From assembly GCA_012959765.1 (NCBI GenBank), contig DUCO01000049.1, positions 1 to 64,000 of the forward strand: a DNA stretch of 64,000 nucleotides. Direction: 5' to 3'. Under the pieces are notes generated by a model, which was not told the DNA's origin, ran no database searches, and was given only the letters and a program-made list of their open reading frames with translations. The stretch is from Dehalococcoidia bacterium (GTDB taxonomy: Bacteria; Chloroflexota; Dehalococcoidia; Lucifugimonadales; Lucifugimonadaceae). How positions within the stretch are numbered: the stretch's first letter is position 1; every line of letters starts with the position of its first letter. Below, piece by piece: positions 673 through 59,180 of the stretch. Both the position numbers and the translations under genes were made by a program.

Positions 673-1711
673 ATGACAAACAAAGACGGAAAACTGGTGG
701 CGCTCAGCACATTGCCAACTGAAGCACCGGTCGACTACGAACGCGATTTCGGTTTGGCCGCAGACATCGAATGGCTGATGTACTTGTCGATGGACGCGGA
801 CAACCTCGCGAAACGAGCGAGCGATGTTGATGTTGTCGTAATAGTCCCGGTTGGCAACCGCCCAGTCCCAGACTTTCACATGTTCCCGAATCTGCAAGCT
901 GTTCTGGTCGGATCCGCCGGATATGAAGTCTTGGCCCCTGAAATGATTCCTGAAGGGTGTCTCGTCACCAATACATTTGAGCACGAGTATTCGATCGCCG
1001 ACTAGGTACTCATGGCAATGATGATCCTCTCAAGAAGGATTTTTTACGACTGAGAAAGCGTTCAGAAACCAAACATTACGCCCGCTCCCAGAATCTGGCG
1101 GCCCACCGCTCGATTTGTCCGACTCAACGATCGGAGTCGTAGGACTCGGTCACATCGGCCGCCAGATCGTGAAAATCGCTGGCACACACAGTGTTCGGTG
1201 CCTTGTGACGATGCGCACGCCGATTTCTGATCAAGATGCGGCAGAACGAGGCATCGACCGCGTGTACCCAGTGGACGGGCTTCACGAAATGCTTTCCGAG
1301 TGCGACTTCGTGGTACCAGCCATCCCGGCGTCTGATGAAACAATCGGCATGTTCGCCAAAGCTGAGTACGAATCGACGAAAGATTCCGCCTTCATTATCA
1401 ATATCGCTAGAGGCGAGGTTCTCGACGAAGATTCAACGTATATGGCCCTCAAAAACAAGGTTATCGCCGGAGCAGCTCTCGACGTTTGGTGGGCCGAAGA
1501 CGGACTCGGTCTTGCCACCGACGATCCAGAACGCAGAAAGTGGTCTGAAAAGCCGTTCTGGGAACTCGACAATGTATTTATGTCGCCTCACAGATCGGGA
1601 GTGACTATCTCAATGCTCAGCGGAAAGATGAAGTTCATCGGCTCGCAGATTGATCGAATAAGTCAGGGCGAACCACTGCTGAACATCGTTTCAACACTTT
1701 CGAAGGACTAG
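673..1711 (+). pseudogene. D-isomer-specific 2-hydroxyacid dehydrogenase, broken by a stop and a frameshift
   Basis: The family uses NAD(P)H to interconvert 2-oxoacids and D-2-hydroxyacids. The first part (673-1002) is the substrate-binding half and reaches the linker ending SIAD. A TAG at 1003-1005 sits where homologues have a tyrosine or other residue before VLMAMM. The frame then shifts by one base at a T6 run (1040-1045). Past the shift the protein continues smoothly, with the Rossmann motif GVVGLGHIGRQ (from about 1132), the NIARGEVLDEDS segment and the SPHRSGVT segment near the C-terminus, stopping at 1709-1711. Both halves are otherwise well conserved, so the damage is recent or partly a sequencing error at the homopolymer. 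The TAG is not explained by the homopolymer. It lies convergent to hemL. Confidence 0.85.
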
Positions 1712-3091: not shown

Positions 3092-4417
3092 TTATTCGAT
3101 CTCGTCGTCTTCATCATCATTGTCGTTGCGGAGTGCGAAAACCTTTTGCACGGCTTCCGCTGCACTATCCTCTTCACTTCTAAGGAAGCTTATTGGATCG
3201 GCAAGAATTCGGCGAACCAGCGATCGAGTCATCTTCTCAACCGAAACAGCCTGCTTCTCAGTCAAACCATCGAGTCGGCCAAGCGTCTGCTCAACTTCCT
3301 CGCGGCGCATCTGCTCCATGCGAGCACCAAGCGTACGGATAACCGGCTCATGGTCGATACCGGTCAAACGCTCCTTGAAGCGTCGAACACCGTCATCGAT
3401 AATCCCCTGGGCCTCTGCGGCAGCTTCTGCACGAAGTTCCCAGCTCTCAGCCGATCGTGCCTGAAGTTCGGTAAGGCTAATAAGATTTACGCCATCAATG
3501 TCAGCCGTCGCAGGGTCAACATCACGAGGCATTCCCAAATCCAGAACGCTCAGCAAGCGATCAGGGCGAACATCAATCACACCCTGAATCACGTCAGCCA
3601 TGATCACCGAATCGGTAGCAGCGGTGCATGTAATCAGCACGTCAGCCTCGATCAGGGCGTCTTTAATATTCTCGAACGGAACCTGTGGAGCACCAAGCTC
3701 ATCGGCAAGGATCTTGCCACGGTTCATCGAACGACTCGACACCACAATGTCGTCAGCCCCGTAACGCCTCAGCGCCCGAGCTGTCAGCTTGCCCATCTCG
3801 CCCGCGCCAACCAGAAGAACCCGAAGACCCTTCAAATCGCCAAGCGTAGTCTGAAGCTCCTGAACACCAAGTGAAGAAACCGATGTTCGGTTGCGACCAA
3901 GGTCAGTCTCTTTGCGGATCTTTCGACTCGTTCGCAGCGCAGCGTGGAACAATCGGGAAAGTGCCGGGTCGACAGTTCCAGCTTCACCAGCCGCCTGCAT
4001 CGCTCGGGTTACCTGACCAAGAATCTGTGATTCGCCAAGTGCCACCGACTGCAAACCTGCGGTCACACCAAAAAGGTGTTCAGCCACAGCGTCGCCGCTA
4101 AGTGTGTAGATGTACTCGCTAATGCCCCCAACGCCAGCGTGCTCAGGAACAGCGTCGATGTATTCCCTGAGCTGGCGAACTCCAACTTCAACATCATCGG
4201 CAACCGAATAAATTTCGGTGCGGTTGCAAGTAGAGAGGATCACGCCCCCGCCAGCATGCGTTGCGAGACGCTCCAGATGTTCCTTCAGCGAATGTGTCGG
4301 AACTGCCACACACTCCAGCGCTTCTACTGGAGCACGATCGATATTTAGCCCTGCGAGTATGAAATTCAATGTATTAAACCTACCGGAATTGCCCCTGACT
4401 GGCAGATTCTTACCCAA
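3092..4417 (-). CDS. hemA: Glutamyl-tRNA reductase
   Basis: NADPH-dependent reduction of glutamyl-tRNA(Glu) to glutamate-1-semialdehyde, the first committed step of C5 tetrapyrrole synthesis. The catalytic cysteine is in LSTCNRTEIY (Cys64 from the listed start). A GESQILGQV segment follows, then the NADP-binding VLLVGAGEMGKLTARAL, then the C-terminal helical dimerisation region ending in a very acidic tail (DNDDEDDEIE). Homologues usually begin only a few residues before the segment FILAGLN, so the first 15 or so residues may be leader, and a TTG start near 4370 is possible. It is followed by hemL. Confidence 0.96.
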   Translation of the reverse strand: MGKNLPVRGNSGRFNTLNFILAGLNIDRAPVEALECVAVPTHSLKEHLERLATHAGGGVILSTCNRTEIYSVADDVEVGVRQLREYIDAVPEHAGVGGISEYIYTLSGDAVAEHLFGVTAGLQSVALGESQILGQVTRAMQAAGEAGTVDPALSRLFHAALRTSRKIRKETDLGRNRTSVSSLGVQELQTTLGDLKGLRVLLVGAGEMGKLTARALRRYGADDIVVSSRSMNRGKILADELGAPQVPFENIKDALIEADVLITCTAATDSVIMADVIQGVIDVRPDRLLSVLDLGMPRDVDPATADIDGVNLISLTELQARSAESWELRAEAAAEAQGIIDDGVRRFKERLTGIDHEPVIRTLGARMEQMRREEVEQTLGRLDGLTEKQAVSVEKMTRSLVRRILADPISFLRSEEDSAAEAVQKVFALRNDNDDEDDEIE

Positions 4418-4592
4418 GAATCCCAGTCCCTAACACAACGGTAGATCGGTTCGTTGTAACGTTCGACTGTAAAACTTATCATGCTTAATTGCGTGTTTTA
4501 CCTAGTAACGCGAGAAGTGCATGAAGCTTGGTGTAGCATCAGCGCACATTCGTTAAATGTACCAACCAATTACAGGAATTCTAGCCCCGTCC

Positions 4593-5456
4593 ATGAGTAT
4601 TCCATCGATTATCCCACCCGAGCAACGTGGCTACGCGATCCCCGATATTTTCGTTACCACCGAATGGCTAGCTAAACACATATCAGATGAAAACGTACGC
4701 ATAGTCGATACAGACTTGCCCGAAGAGTACGACGCTGGACACATTCCTGGGTCGGTGAACCCGGTCGATCACTACTACAAAAGGTCGCTCGAAGACCGAA
4801 CGTACATTCAAGAATCCGAACAGTTCGCAGCAACAATGCGCGATCTGGGCATCGACGACGAGACTCTGGTGATTAGCTATGCGCGAGCCGGGGGTGTCTA
4901 TTCGTTCCGGCTAATGTGGGCACTTCACTACTACGGCCACACGAACGTTAGAGTTCTCGACGGCGGACTCGACAAGTGGGAAGCAGAAGGTCGAGAGAAG
5001 AGCGTGAACACGTCTTCGTTCGCTGGCTCCGCCGGAACGTTCACGCCAAAAGTAAATTCCAGTATCTTCGCTTCGGCCGATAGGGTTCTGGACGCCATAG
5101 ATGACGATTCGACCGTCTTGCTCGATCTCAGAGCCGACGATGAATGGAACGGAACCAACAAACGAGGCGGTCCTCGCGGCGGGCGTGTCCCCGGCGCAAC
5201 CCATCTCGAATGGAAGCATTTCAACACCGACGGCGATATCCCGGTCCTGAAATCAGCCGAAGAAATTCGCAAGGTGCTTGCCGAGTTCGGAATCACTCCT
5301 GATAAGAACGTAATTACCTACTGACAGGGTGGCATCCGTGCGGCGCACGGATTCTGGGCTCTTAAACTCGCAGGATTCGAAAATGTGCGGGACTACGATG
5401 GTTCGTGGCGAGAATGGGCAGCCGTACCTTCGTGCCCTGTAGAAGGGCTCACGTAG
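4593..5456 (+). CDS. Two-domain rhodanese / 3-mercaptopyruvate sulfurtransferase with in-frame TGA at the catalytic cysteine
   Basis: Transfers sulfane sulfur from thiosulfate or 3-mercaptopyruvate to thiols. From ATG 4593 the first rhodanese domain (EEYDAGHIPGSVNP, then an inactive loop SYARAGG) is followed by a second domain (LLDLRADDEW, GRVPGATHLEW). The active-site loop reads VITY-TGA-QGGIRAAHGFW, and homologues have Cys exactly where TGA stands (5322-5324, codon 244). After the TGA the frame stays open and conserved for 43 codons (GFENVRDYDGSWREW) to TAG 5454-5456, giving 287 residues. A hairpin begins 9 bases after the TGA. It is either a selenoprotein or a gene with one very recent nonsense mutation. 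If translation stops at TGA, the product (4593-5324) lacks the catalytic loop. An upstream ATG at 4557 is in frame but less like the family. Confidence 0.85.
5331..5355 (+). promoter_or_regulatory. Hairpin immediately after the TGA; candidate bacterial SECIS element
   Basis: ATCCGTGC (5334-5341) pairs perfectly with GCACGGAT (5345-5352). This leaves a GGC loop, or a CGGCG loop if the top pair opens. The apical loop begins about 17 bases after the TGA and carries a G in its first two positions. Known bacterial SECIS rules ask for a loop roughly 16-37 bases after UGA with an early loop G, and this hairpin satisfies them. It also encodes conserved GIRAAHG residues, so a fortuitous hairpin in GC-rich codons cannot be excluded. 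Confidence 0.5.
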
Positions 5457-5623
5457 CCCTGAAATAGCTCCTCGGCCGTACTCCGCAACTCAACCGGTCT
5501 ATCGAACAATGGCTGTTGCCACGAAATCCGATTGCCACCAATTCGCCGTACATATTCAAGACGGCTCGTAAAAAACTGCCCGGCAACTATCGAATTTTCT
5601 ATCAGCTGCCAACCACACTTCGA

Positions 5624-6853
5624 ATGAAACTACAAAAGTCTTTCCTTACATGGTCGCTTATCGCTGCAATAACGGCTCTGGCCGCCGTTGCGTGTGGTGG
5701 CGAACTCGACCCTGCAAACGCACCAACTCAAGTTGTAGTTGCGCCAGATTCAACTTCGGCAACACTGGCGTCCGATGCACCTCGGGTCACTAACACCCCT
5801 GCCCCAAAGCCAACAAATCCGTCACCGCTCCCGACTTACCCGAAGGGCAAACTCGAAGTTTACGAGATCGACGCGTGGATCAACTCAGAAGAATTCAAAA
5901 TCGCCGATAAATTTGCAGAAAATCAGGTTGTGCTCGTCGATTTCTGGACCTACACCTGCGTCAACTGCTTACGCACTCTGCCTTTCTTACGAGAATGGCA
6001 GGCCAAATACGCCGACCACGGTCTGACAATTCTCGGGGTACACACCCCCGAGTTCGATTTTGAAAAAGACGCCGAAAACGTCAAAGCCGCGATCGAACGT
6101 GAAAACATCGAATGGGCGGTTGCGCTCGACAACGACTACGGCACATGGAACTCGTTCGGAAACCGATACTGGCCAGCCAAGTACCTCATCGGACTCGACG
6201 GCCAACTCACGTACCGACACTTCGGCGAAGGCTCATACGTCGAAACGGAGCTGGCAATACGCGAAACACTTACTGAAGCCGGATGGGATGTATCTGACAT
6301 TCCGATCGGCAGCACAAACAGCGCGAACCGTGACCCCGTAGCCGATCGAATGACTCGAGAGCTATACGGCGGCTACGAACGCAACTACACCCAGTCGGGA
6401 CTGTACGCGGGGCAAGAGCAGTACTACATCGAGCCCGATTCAACCCGGGAATACGTGGATGATGGCAACTACACTCCCCAGCAGTGGTACCTGCAAGGAA
6501 AGTGGATGAACGGTCCCGAATCGATAATTCACGCCCGAAAAACAAGTAATCTCGAAGATCACATCGCCTTTCAATTCGTCGGCAGAAGCGCAAACGTGGT
6601 CGTGAACCCAACTGGAACTGAACCATTCAACGTATACGTGGAAATTGACGATCGCCCGCTGACCGCCGATGAAGCCGGAATGGACATCCTGTTCGACAAC
6701 GAGGGTCGTTCGTACTTCAGCGTCAACGAACCCCGTCTTTACGCTTTTCTCGAAACTCCCGAATTTGGTGAGCACATCGTGAAATTGGCGTCTGATTCAG
6801 ATGATTTCGCCATTTTTGCCTTCACATTTGGAATCAACGAAGGCGGGATTTAG
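5624..6853 (+). CDS. Thioredoxin-fold lipoprotein, DipZ C-terminal type
   Basis: Probable extracytoplasmic thiol-disulfide protein anchored as a lipoprotein. From ATG 5624 there is a hydrophobic signal ending in lipobox AVAC (Cys24), a Pro/Thr-rich linker, and a redoxin domain with CVNC (Cys112-Cys115) in DFWTYTCVNCLRTLPF. A roughly 170-residue C-terminal region then resembles the carbohydrate-binding-like domain of DipZ proteins. Length is 409 residues. The frame extends upstream to 5516, but the signal peptide fixes the start at 5624. It follows the rhodanese and overlaps the next gene by one base, suggesting a shared redox role. The partner is unknown. Confidence 0.88.
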   Translation: MKLQKSFLTWSLIAAITALAAVACGGELDPANAPTQVVVAPDSTSATLASDAPRVTNTPAPKPTNPSPLPTYPKGKLEVYEIDAWINSEEFKIADKFAENQVVLVDFWTYTCVNCLRTLPFLREWQAKYADHGLTILGVHTPEFDFEKDAENVKAAIERENIEWAVALDNDYGTWNSFGNRYWPAKYLIGLDGQLTYRHFGEGSYVETELAIRETLTEAGWDVSDIPIGSTNSANRDPVADRMTRELYGGYERNYTQSGLYAGQEQYYIEPDSTREYVDDGNYTPQQWYLQGKWMNGPESIIHARKTSNLEDHIAFQFVGRSANVVVNPTGTEPFNVYVEIDDRPLTADEAGMDILFDNEGRSYFSVNEPRLYAFLETPEFGEHIVKLASDSDDFAIFAFTFGINEGGI

Positions 6854-7860
6854 TGCGGAAGTCCTCGTGGATTCGTCCTAACGCCAGACTAGCGATGCTA
6901 CTAGCGGTCCTCGCCAGCATTGCGCTCACAGCATGTGCATCCGACGACCTAAAAGAAGTCGCTTCACCAGACTCAACTCAAAGCTCAGTTCAACAGTTGG
7001 GACTGCCGTCAGGCCTCTCATCATTCGCTTCGCTAGAGCCTAATTGGACCGTCATTTCCGAAGAAATCGACCTTGAACTGGCTACCCCCGATCTCGGAGT
7101 TGGCGTGCAGCGATTCGGCGTAGTTCTTAGCGACGACTCAGGCCTGATCAAATTTCCTGTCGTAAGACTCACATCCAACTACTTCCCAAACGGCTACAAC
7201 TCCGAACCCGACCCCACACTCTCCGTTACCGCTTCAGCACGGTTCTACGAATTCCCGTTTGTAACCCGCGGAATCCACTCGACCGATCTAATGTTCGATA
7301 GAGCGGGTCTATGGTCAGTTTCGGCACAGATCCCGCGGCCCGATGGCTCCACTGCACCAGTAGAAGTGCGGTTCACCGTCGCCGAAATAGCAGCATCAGT
7401 CACCGTTGGGCAACAGGCCCCTGCAAGCGCCAGTCGAACACTCTCAGAAGTAGGCAGCATTCGGGAATTAACGACAGGCAGTCACAGAGATCCCGACCTC
7501 TACACCTACTCGATCGCGGATGCACTTGAACGTGATCGCCCCCTACTCATCGTCTTCGCCAGCCCAGCTTTTTGCACAAACGCCGTTTGCGGACCACAAG
7601 TAGAAATCGCAAGTGAACTTCGAGAGGTTTACGGCGATCAAGTCGATTTCGTTCATGTCGACCTCTACTCCAACCCGCATGAGATCCAGGGCGACCTGAG
7701 TTTGGCAATACTCACCCCGCTGCTCGAAGAGTGGGGACTTTCATCGCAGGAATGGACGTTCATAGTCGATTCAGAAGGCGTAGTAACTCACCGATTCGAA
7801 AACTTCGCTCCCAAGCCAGAGCTAATCGAAGCACTCGACCAGACCGTATCCATGAGCTAG
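6853..7860 (+). CDS. Thioredoxin-fold lipoprotein with CxxxxC motif
   Basis: Starts at GTG 6853, sharing one base with the stop of the previous gene, which is a translational-coupling arrangement. A signal peptide ends in lipobox LTAC (Cys28). The middle (about residues 60-190) is a beta-rich domain of unknown type. The C-terminal third is thioredoxin-like: LLIVFASPAFCTNAVCGP carries Cys241 and Cys246 spaced by four residues rather than the usual two, followed by VDFVHVDLY and a TFIVDSEGVVTHRFE strand pair. It probably works with its neighbour outside the membrane. The spacing argues against a classical CxxC oxidoreductase, and a peroxiredoxin-like or metal-chaperone-like use of the cysteines is possible. 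Confidence 0.8.
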   Translation: MRKSSWIRPNARLAMLLAVLASIALTACASDDLKEVASPDSTQSSVQQLGLPSGLSSFASLEPNWTVISEEIDLELATPDLGVGVQRFGVVLSDDSGLIKFPVVRLTSNYFPNGYNSEPDPTLSVTASARFYEFPFVTRGIHSTDLMFDRAGLWSVSAQIPRPDGSTAPVEVRFTVAEIAASVTVGQQAPASASRTLSEVGSIRELTTGSHRDPDLYTYSIADALERDRPLLIVFASPAFCTNAVCGPQVEIASELREVYGDQVDFVHVDLYSNPHEIQGDLSLAILTPLLEEWGLSSQEWTFIVDSEGVVTHRFENFAPKPELIEALDQTVSMS

Positions 7861-16329: not shown

Positions 16330-16503
16330 ATGGCGAGAGTTTCGGTCGAAAGCGTAAAAAACGTTCAGGTTCGAATCAAGGCTGAGGATTACGAGTGGAT
16401 AGGTGACGAGCCGCCTGATGTTGGCGATGGCATGGGACCGGGTCCTTACGATCTTCTGCTCGGCGCGCTGGGATCATGCATGACCATGACGCTACTTTTT
16501 GTA
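16330..16503 (+). pseudogene. OsmC-family protein, N-terminal fragment cut by an IS
   Basis: OsmC proteins are small thiol peroxidases. The fragment runs from ATG 16330 through GPGPYDLLLGALGSCMTMTL, which includes the conserved Cys of the family, and then a T5 run. The next recognisable family piece (YAR) is just readable in a shifted frame before the sequence turns into transposase. The C-terminal two-thirds of OsmC are absent. The open frame continues into the IS to 16737 as a chimeric product. Confidence 0.8.
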
Positions 16504-17064
16504 TGCTCGGCGAAAAGAGGAAGACTCTGGCTGAATGACGGATCAATCACAAGGCTGAAGCCGGAGAGAAAAGGTCATGTGTGGGCTTACGACTTCGTCT
16601 CGTGCAGGACCGAGGATGGACGAGCAGTCAGGCTGTTGACCGTGATTGACGAGTACACAAGAGAATGCATGGCAATTCAGGCAGCAAGAAGGATTCGTTC
16701 AGATGACGTGATGCACACGCTCACCAGTCTCTTCTAGTCTAACGGCGTTCCAGAGCACATCAGGTCGGACAACGGTCCGGAGTTCACGGCGAAGGCAGTA
16801 AGGGACTGGTTACCGCGTGTCGGAGTCCAGACCTTGTTCATTCAACCAGGCAGTCCGTGGGAAAACGGCTACAACGAGAGCTTCAATGGAAAACTCAGGG
16901 ATGAACTGCTAAATGGCGAGATTTTTTATTCACTCAAGGAGGTGCAGATACTGACAGAACAATGGAGAAGGGAGTACAACACAATCCGACAACACAGCTC
17001 ACTTGGATACCGGCCGCCAGCGCCCGAAATAATCAGGCTGAAGCAGGCCGTCGGACTAACATAG
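16503..17064 (+). pseudogene. IS3 orfB transposase fragment with in-frame stop
   Basis: DDE integrase core of IS3 orfB. Recognisable pieces are RLWLNDGS, HVWAYDFVSCRTEDGRA (first Asp), [25 protein letters not shown] (second Asp) and [20 protein letters not shown] (Glu), ending [16 protein letters not shown] at 16736-16738 interrupts the frame between LTSLF and SNGVPEH; otherwise the same frame continues to 17064. All three catalytic residues survive, but the 5' portion is gone. Confidence 0.88.
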
Positions 17065-58847: not shown

Positions 58848-59180
58848 ATGGAAGCCGCACTCAAAGCAATGTCCGACCCGACCCGACGTAAAATTCTTCA
58901 ACTCGTTCAGAACGAAGAGATGCCCGCCGGGGCTATCGCGTCGAACTTCCCGGTAAGTAGACCCGCCATATCGCAGCATCTCGCAGTGCTCAAGTCGGCA
59001 GGTCTGATCGACGAACGAAGGTCGGGCGTAAAGCGTCTGTACCGCACAAGGGTGGCGGGTATGGCAGAGCTAAAAGTGTTTCTGGAGATGTTCTGGGACG
59101 TACGACTCGAACGGCTAAAAGCTGCGGTTGAAGCAGATATCAAAAAAGAGGAATCTTGCGATGACGACGTCCAGAACTGA
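58848..59180 (+). CDS. ArsR-family transcriptional regulator
   Basis: 110-residue winged helix: LKAMSDPTRRKILQLVQ, then AIASNFPVSRPAISQHLAVL with the recognition helix and LIDERRSGVKRLY wing. There is no CxC metal site in the recognition helix, so it is of the non-metal type that often accompanies SRPBCC/AHSA1 genes, as here. Its 3' end overlaps the SRPBCC gene by 20 bases. Confidence 0.93.
   Translation: MEAALKAMSDPTRRKILQLVQNEEMPAGAIASNFPVSRPAISQHLAVLKSAGLIDERRSGVKRLYRTRVAGMAELKVFLEMFWDVRLERLKAAVEADIKKEESCDDDVQN

Follow-up and report, generated by a model that had tools for sequence, protein, structure and literature searches.

The question raised by this locus is whether a TGA codon within a rhodanese gene ends the protein or is read as selenocysteine (Sec). 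The gene lies in a window of 64,000 nucleotides, the whole stretch of DNA analyzed here, from a Dehalococcoidia bacterium. Its genome, 92% complete at 2.63 Mb in 49 contigs, was set against those of 18 congeners. Based on the position of the codon, its relatives, and the gene content of the genome, the frame almost certainly encodes a functional selenoprotein, a two-domain COG2897/SseA-like sulfurtransferase with Sec as the catalytic residue of its second rhodanese domain.

The rhodanese frame and its internal TGA codon

The sequence-only reading had described a forward-strand frame from 4593 to 5456 that was unbroken except for a TGA at the active-site Cys of the second rhodanese domain, and this description was accurate. 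The only internal stop is the TGA at 5322–5324 (codon 244), the terminator TAG at 5454–5456 follows 43 codons past it, and the frame carries no further lesion. Read through codon 244, the predicted coding sequence (4593–5456, +) specifies a two-domain (SseA/COG2897-type) rhodanese selenoprotein of 287 residues, the C-terminus of which reads DYDGSWREWAAVPSCPVEGLT. ATG 4593 is favored over ATG 4557 as the start because the resulting N-terminus, MSIPSIIPP, matches those of the genus orthologues in the alignment.

Two PF00581 domains were recognized on the forward strand, at 4656–4988 (69.2 bits) and, with the one TGA inside it, at 5073–5423 (64.6 bits), and the active residue is in the C-terminal domain alone. 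The N-terminal domain reads VISYARAGG, with no Cys at the catalytic position, and appears to be the usual inactive domain. The active-site loop of the C-terminal domain is predicted to read YUQGGIRA. Codon 244 is opposite the catalytic Cys of rhodaneses of solved structure, the best match being 1uar (E 7e-45), in which 'vvYCRIAERSSH' is aligned with 'itycqggiraah' of the query; this alignment and the relatives described below point to Sec at residue 244. The protein scored 132.6 bits against the 3-mercaptopyruvate sulfurtransferase (MST) equivalog NF008557 (NCBIfam), below its cut-off of 250, and is thus homologous to MST, yet not assignable as MST. Standard gene calling stops this enzyme just short of its catalytic residue.

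Elsewhere in the window, an open reading frame at 16330–16737 (+) begins as an OsmC-like protein and continues into an integrase-core (rve) fragment, as if an insertion element had interrupted an OsmC gene. A codon-usage scan of the window for TGA-interrupted genes returned one match, at 59178 (+), where a TGA lies between coding-like stretches and which is probably noise; since the scan missed 5322, it is not a sensitive test.

Conservation of the TGA codon and the downstream hairpin

Of the 18 congeners, 17 have an orthologue with a single TGA (70–77% identical), and the other (G012) has a distant paralogue only. Together with the gene in the window, this gives 18 genus sequences, all of which have TGA at codon 244, as do 19 sequences from other families and orders (L021, L027, L028, L029, L031, and 14 of L063–L081). 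Of the 49 orthologues overall, 37 have TGA at this codon and the other 12 have TGC or TGT (L022–L026, L030, L032, L067, L068, L071, L075, and L077), the alternation that an alignment of homologues had been proposed to reveal. Most named public genomes that carry the gene bear the label Chloroflexi, Dehalococcoidia, or SAR202 cluster bacterium, and the codon in those that were readable at the site is always TGA, TGC, or TGT. The locus therefore has what marks a bacterial selenoprotein, namely an in-frame UGA that is opposite a redox-active Cys and kept in more than one organism. A conserved C-terminus had also been claimed for the 43 codons after the TGA (5325–5453, +), and these are under purifying selection, with a pN/pS of 0.14 in the genus comparison versus 0.18 before the TGA.

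The gene neighborhood is also retained, including in several Cys orthologues, with a divergent hemL-hemA pair preceding the rhodanese gene and a thioredoxin-like gene following it, which indicates that the rhodanese copies are positional orthologues. The region at 5516–7860 (+) encodes this thioredoxin-like protein (CVNC motif, Thioredoxin_10 C-terminal domain) followed by a protein without a Pfam match; both genes adjoin the rhodanese gene across the group and may be its functional partners.

The predicted bacterial SECIS element is located at 5334–5352 (+). After a 9-nt spacer (5325–5333), the arms ATCCGTGC (5334–5341) and GCACGGAT (5345–5352) pair in a perfect 8-bp stem around the apical loop GGC (5342–5344), at a TGA-to-loop distance of 17 nt, in agreement with the hairpin noted from the letters alone. 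The published bacterial model specifies a loop of 3–9 nt, an upper stem of 4–16 bp, a G within the first two loop positions, 16–37 nt from UGA to loop, and a minimum free energy (MFE) of −7.5 kcal/mol or lower (PMC13188914). The present element falls within every one of these ranges, with its 3-nt GGC loop, 8 bp, G in first position, 17 nt, and an MFE of −13.5 kcal/mol over 33 nt and −16.9 kcal/mol over 45 nt. The latter corresponds to a z of −2.43 and was equalled by 3 of 200 shuffles, and when the peptide was recoded with synonymous codons, 6.5% of the versions gave a stem of at least 8 bp. Judged from one sequence, the hairpin is no more than mildly unusual and weak as stand-alone evidence; since the peptide IRAAHG favors self-complementary coding, it is the conservation of the hairpin, not its mere presence, that counts as evidence. 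An Rfam scan of 4400–5700 gave no match, and a search for the same UGA-hairpin across the genome returned the rhodanese locus only.

This conservation is pronounced and makes the comparative case for the SECIS element an unusually clear one. The core CGTGC-GGC/GTC-GCAC recurs nearly letter for letter in the 37 TGA orthologues and is missing from all 12 Cys orthologues and from the further Cys genes read in named genomes. In the genus, pS is 0.107 for the hairpin codons versus 0.74 upstream and 0.78 further downstream, a sign that a constraint other than the protein sequence acts on the third positions. L008 and L018 each lack one pair of the stem, and in L021 the stem is reduced to a short apical one. 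A compensatory change from C-G to G-C was found in L072 and L081. No other pair is altered on both sides, and an equally good value came up in 226 of 500 shuffles; covariation, slight because the stem hardly varies, is weak as proof of a SECIS element. UGA-hairpin matches, by hairpin pattern alone, also occur beyond the class, in a few other genomes of the phylum (G440, G461, and G517).

Selenocysteine machinery, Sec/Cys switches, and other readings of the TGA

The sequence-only reading had advised a search of the same genome for selA, selB, selD, and tRNA-Sec, and all four were found. The rhodanese-bearing genome contains tRNA-Sec with a UCA anticodon (contig C25), and profile searches located selA (C40, 511 bits), selB (C36, 320 bits), and selD (C46, 371 bits), each above its curated cut-off. 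The SelD gene (L057, C46:97712–98638) itself has an in-frame TGA near the N-terminus (TCAGUAGK) with a stem-loop after it, and looks like a second predicted selenoprotein of this genome. Among 60 genomes, the UGA rhodanese was present in 39 of 53 selA-positive and 0 of 7 selA-negative genomes (Fisher p 3e-4), an association that ignores kinship and for which the TGA site was checked individually at fetched loci and assumed for the rest. One genome (G056) has a UGA rhodanese fragment and selA with no selB match. Another (G026) combines a Cys rhodanese with selB above the cut-off and no selA above it; the Sec trait may be decaying there, or the assembly may be incomplete.

A tree built by a quick method from 97 orthologues (41 Sec and 56 Cys), with the Sec column masked and with some long branches, requires at least five changes between Sec and Cys, three of which are forced by well-supported branches. 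Cys rhodaneses occur in Sec-less genomes (G023, G024, and G033), and also in three genomes that retain both SelA and SelB (G028, L025; G034, L032; G035, L024). Loss of the machinery is thus not the sole route to Cys, and in these three genomes Sec was replaced, or never gained, without it. Sec and Cys orthologues at one locus represent matched natural pairs that may reveal what selenium buys a sulfurtransferase.

The position of the codon, its conservation, that of the SECIS element, and the presence of the machinery were observed directly, and other readings of the TGA were weighed against them. A TGC or TGT codon may have mutated to TGA in a decaying gene, or the TGA may be a sequencing or assembly error. 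The sequence-only reading had taken a simple nonsense change to be the main rival on the grounds that other genes in the window carry such lesions. Lesions do occur: a D-isomer hydroxyacid dehydrogenase-like gene at 673–1711 (+) is broken by a TAG at 1003–1005 and a shift of frame, and in contrast to the rhodanese TGA this is an ordinary lesion. Against both a nonsense change and an error, the TGA is fixed in the 18 genus sequences and in many families across independent assemblies, the part after it is under purifying selection (pN/pS 0.14), and the rhodanese frame has no second lesion. Conservation of the TGA and purifying selection rule out a lesion or error in practice, and we regard the chance of either as negligible. 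The continuation of the frame past the TGA, the sole point in its favor, would also suit a TGA read as an amino acid other than Sec, through genome-wide reassignment (Trp or Gly) or near-cognate read-through at a low rate (Trp, Arg, or Cys). However, 8 of the window's 38 long coding segments end in TGA, as do several orthologues, and the codon is therefore not globally reassigned; within the gene it is found at the catalytic Cys only, where it alternates with Cys codons. These terminators and the exclusive position rule out global reassignment, and with a SECIS hairpin and complete Sec machinery present, we consider any non-Sec reading extremely improbable.

A further possibility is that the UGA and hairpin mainly act as a selenium-sensing switch, such that cells short of selenium make a 243-residue product lacking the catalytic residue. 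Sec UGAs in bacterial selenoprotein synthesis generally yield some termination product, which fits such regulated truncation; however, the active-site loop and the last part of the domain would be missing from the short form, the Cys orthologues have no such switch, and there is no sign that the short form is selected for. We regard truncation as the main role of the element as very unlikely and favor synthesis of the full-length selenoprotein, which the sequence-only reading had put forward as a candidate and which the conservation of the TGA within and beyond the genus, the conserved SECIS element, and the machinery now support.

Proposed function and relationship to known Sec rhodaneses

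In the proposed pathway, selenophosphate would be made by SelD, itself UGA-containing, and SelA would convert Ser-tRNA-Sec to Sec-tRNA-Sec. SelB would bind the 8-bp hairpin, the loop of which lies 17 nt past the UGA, such that UGA is decoded as Sec on the ribosome and translation continues through the last 43 codons, yielding a 287-residue protein with a selenolate at the catalytic site. This selenolate may play the part of the Cys in ordinary rhodaneses, taking sulfane sulfur from a donor and handing it to an acceptor. We infer this transfer from homology, and the natural donor may be thiosulfate, 3-mercaptopyruvate, or something else. Alternatively, the Sec rhodanese may handle selenium itself, supplying it to SelD or to tRNA selenation in the form of a perselenide or selenosulfide, with a near-frozen SECIS element being kept because the level of the protein must follow the selenium supply. 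We consider this unlikely; if true, the Sec/Cys switches, and Cys in genomes without SelA and SelB, would mark the loss of that role.

Relative to sulfurtransferases with a catalytic Cys, the predicted selenoprotein shows near full-length homology to the TST/MST group (1uar; Mycobacterium tuberculosis SseA, 3hzu; Escherichia coli SseA, 1urh) and shares the alignment position of the catalytic residue; it differs in the predicted Sec, where those enzymes have Cys, and in its CQGGIRA-type loop. The classical catalytic loops, CRKGVT in TST and CGSGVT in MST, are both unlike it. The single-domain Sec rhodaneses (COG0607; NF041203, rhodanese-related (seleno)protein) also have a rhodanese domain with Sec, but differ in their motifs, CxU and UxxS, and have one domain only. 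Against NF041203, the present protein scored 30.8 bits, below the cut-off of 115.

The closest counterpart is the Sec rhodanese-related sulfurtransferase of COG2897. Its occurrence in marine metagenomes, mentioned in the sequence-only reading, is borne out by two reports: it was predicted in 2005 from three Sargasso Sea sequences with the SECIS element drawn (Zhang, Fomenko, Gladyshev; PMC1088965), and eight sequences, assigned to cd01449, were found in the 2008 GOS survey (PMC2398784). It has since been listed as SseA (MQG53192.1) in a 2022 review (PMC9312934) and as 'rhodanese-like form 4', UxxG (MCY3690685.1), in a 2026 review (PMC13188914). The present protein has the UxxG motif, as U-Q-G-G, together with SseA-type homology, and matches the published members by their description: a two-domain family with Sec at the catalytic site, a SECIS element straight after the UGA, an occurrence in marine bacteria, and widespread Cys homologues. 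The literature searched held no paper joining SAR202 with a selenoprotein, and as far as that search extends, this is a known family at a new locus, with its lineage assignment and SECIS conservation previously undescribed. The 3 + 8 earlier sequences are metagenomic, with no host lineage given in the available text of those reports (PMC1088965, PMC2398784), whereas the present ones come from whole Dehalococcoidia/SAR202-type genomes; to the earlier description are added a map of the Sec/Cys switches and the conservation of the SECIS sequence. A family of a few metagenomic reads is now anchored in whole genomes with Sec machinery, from a host group that is marine, abundant, and largely uncultured.
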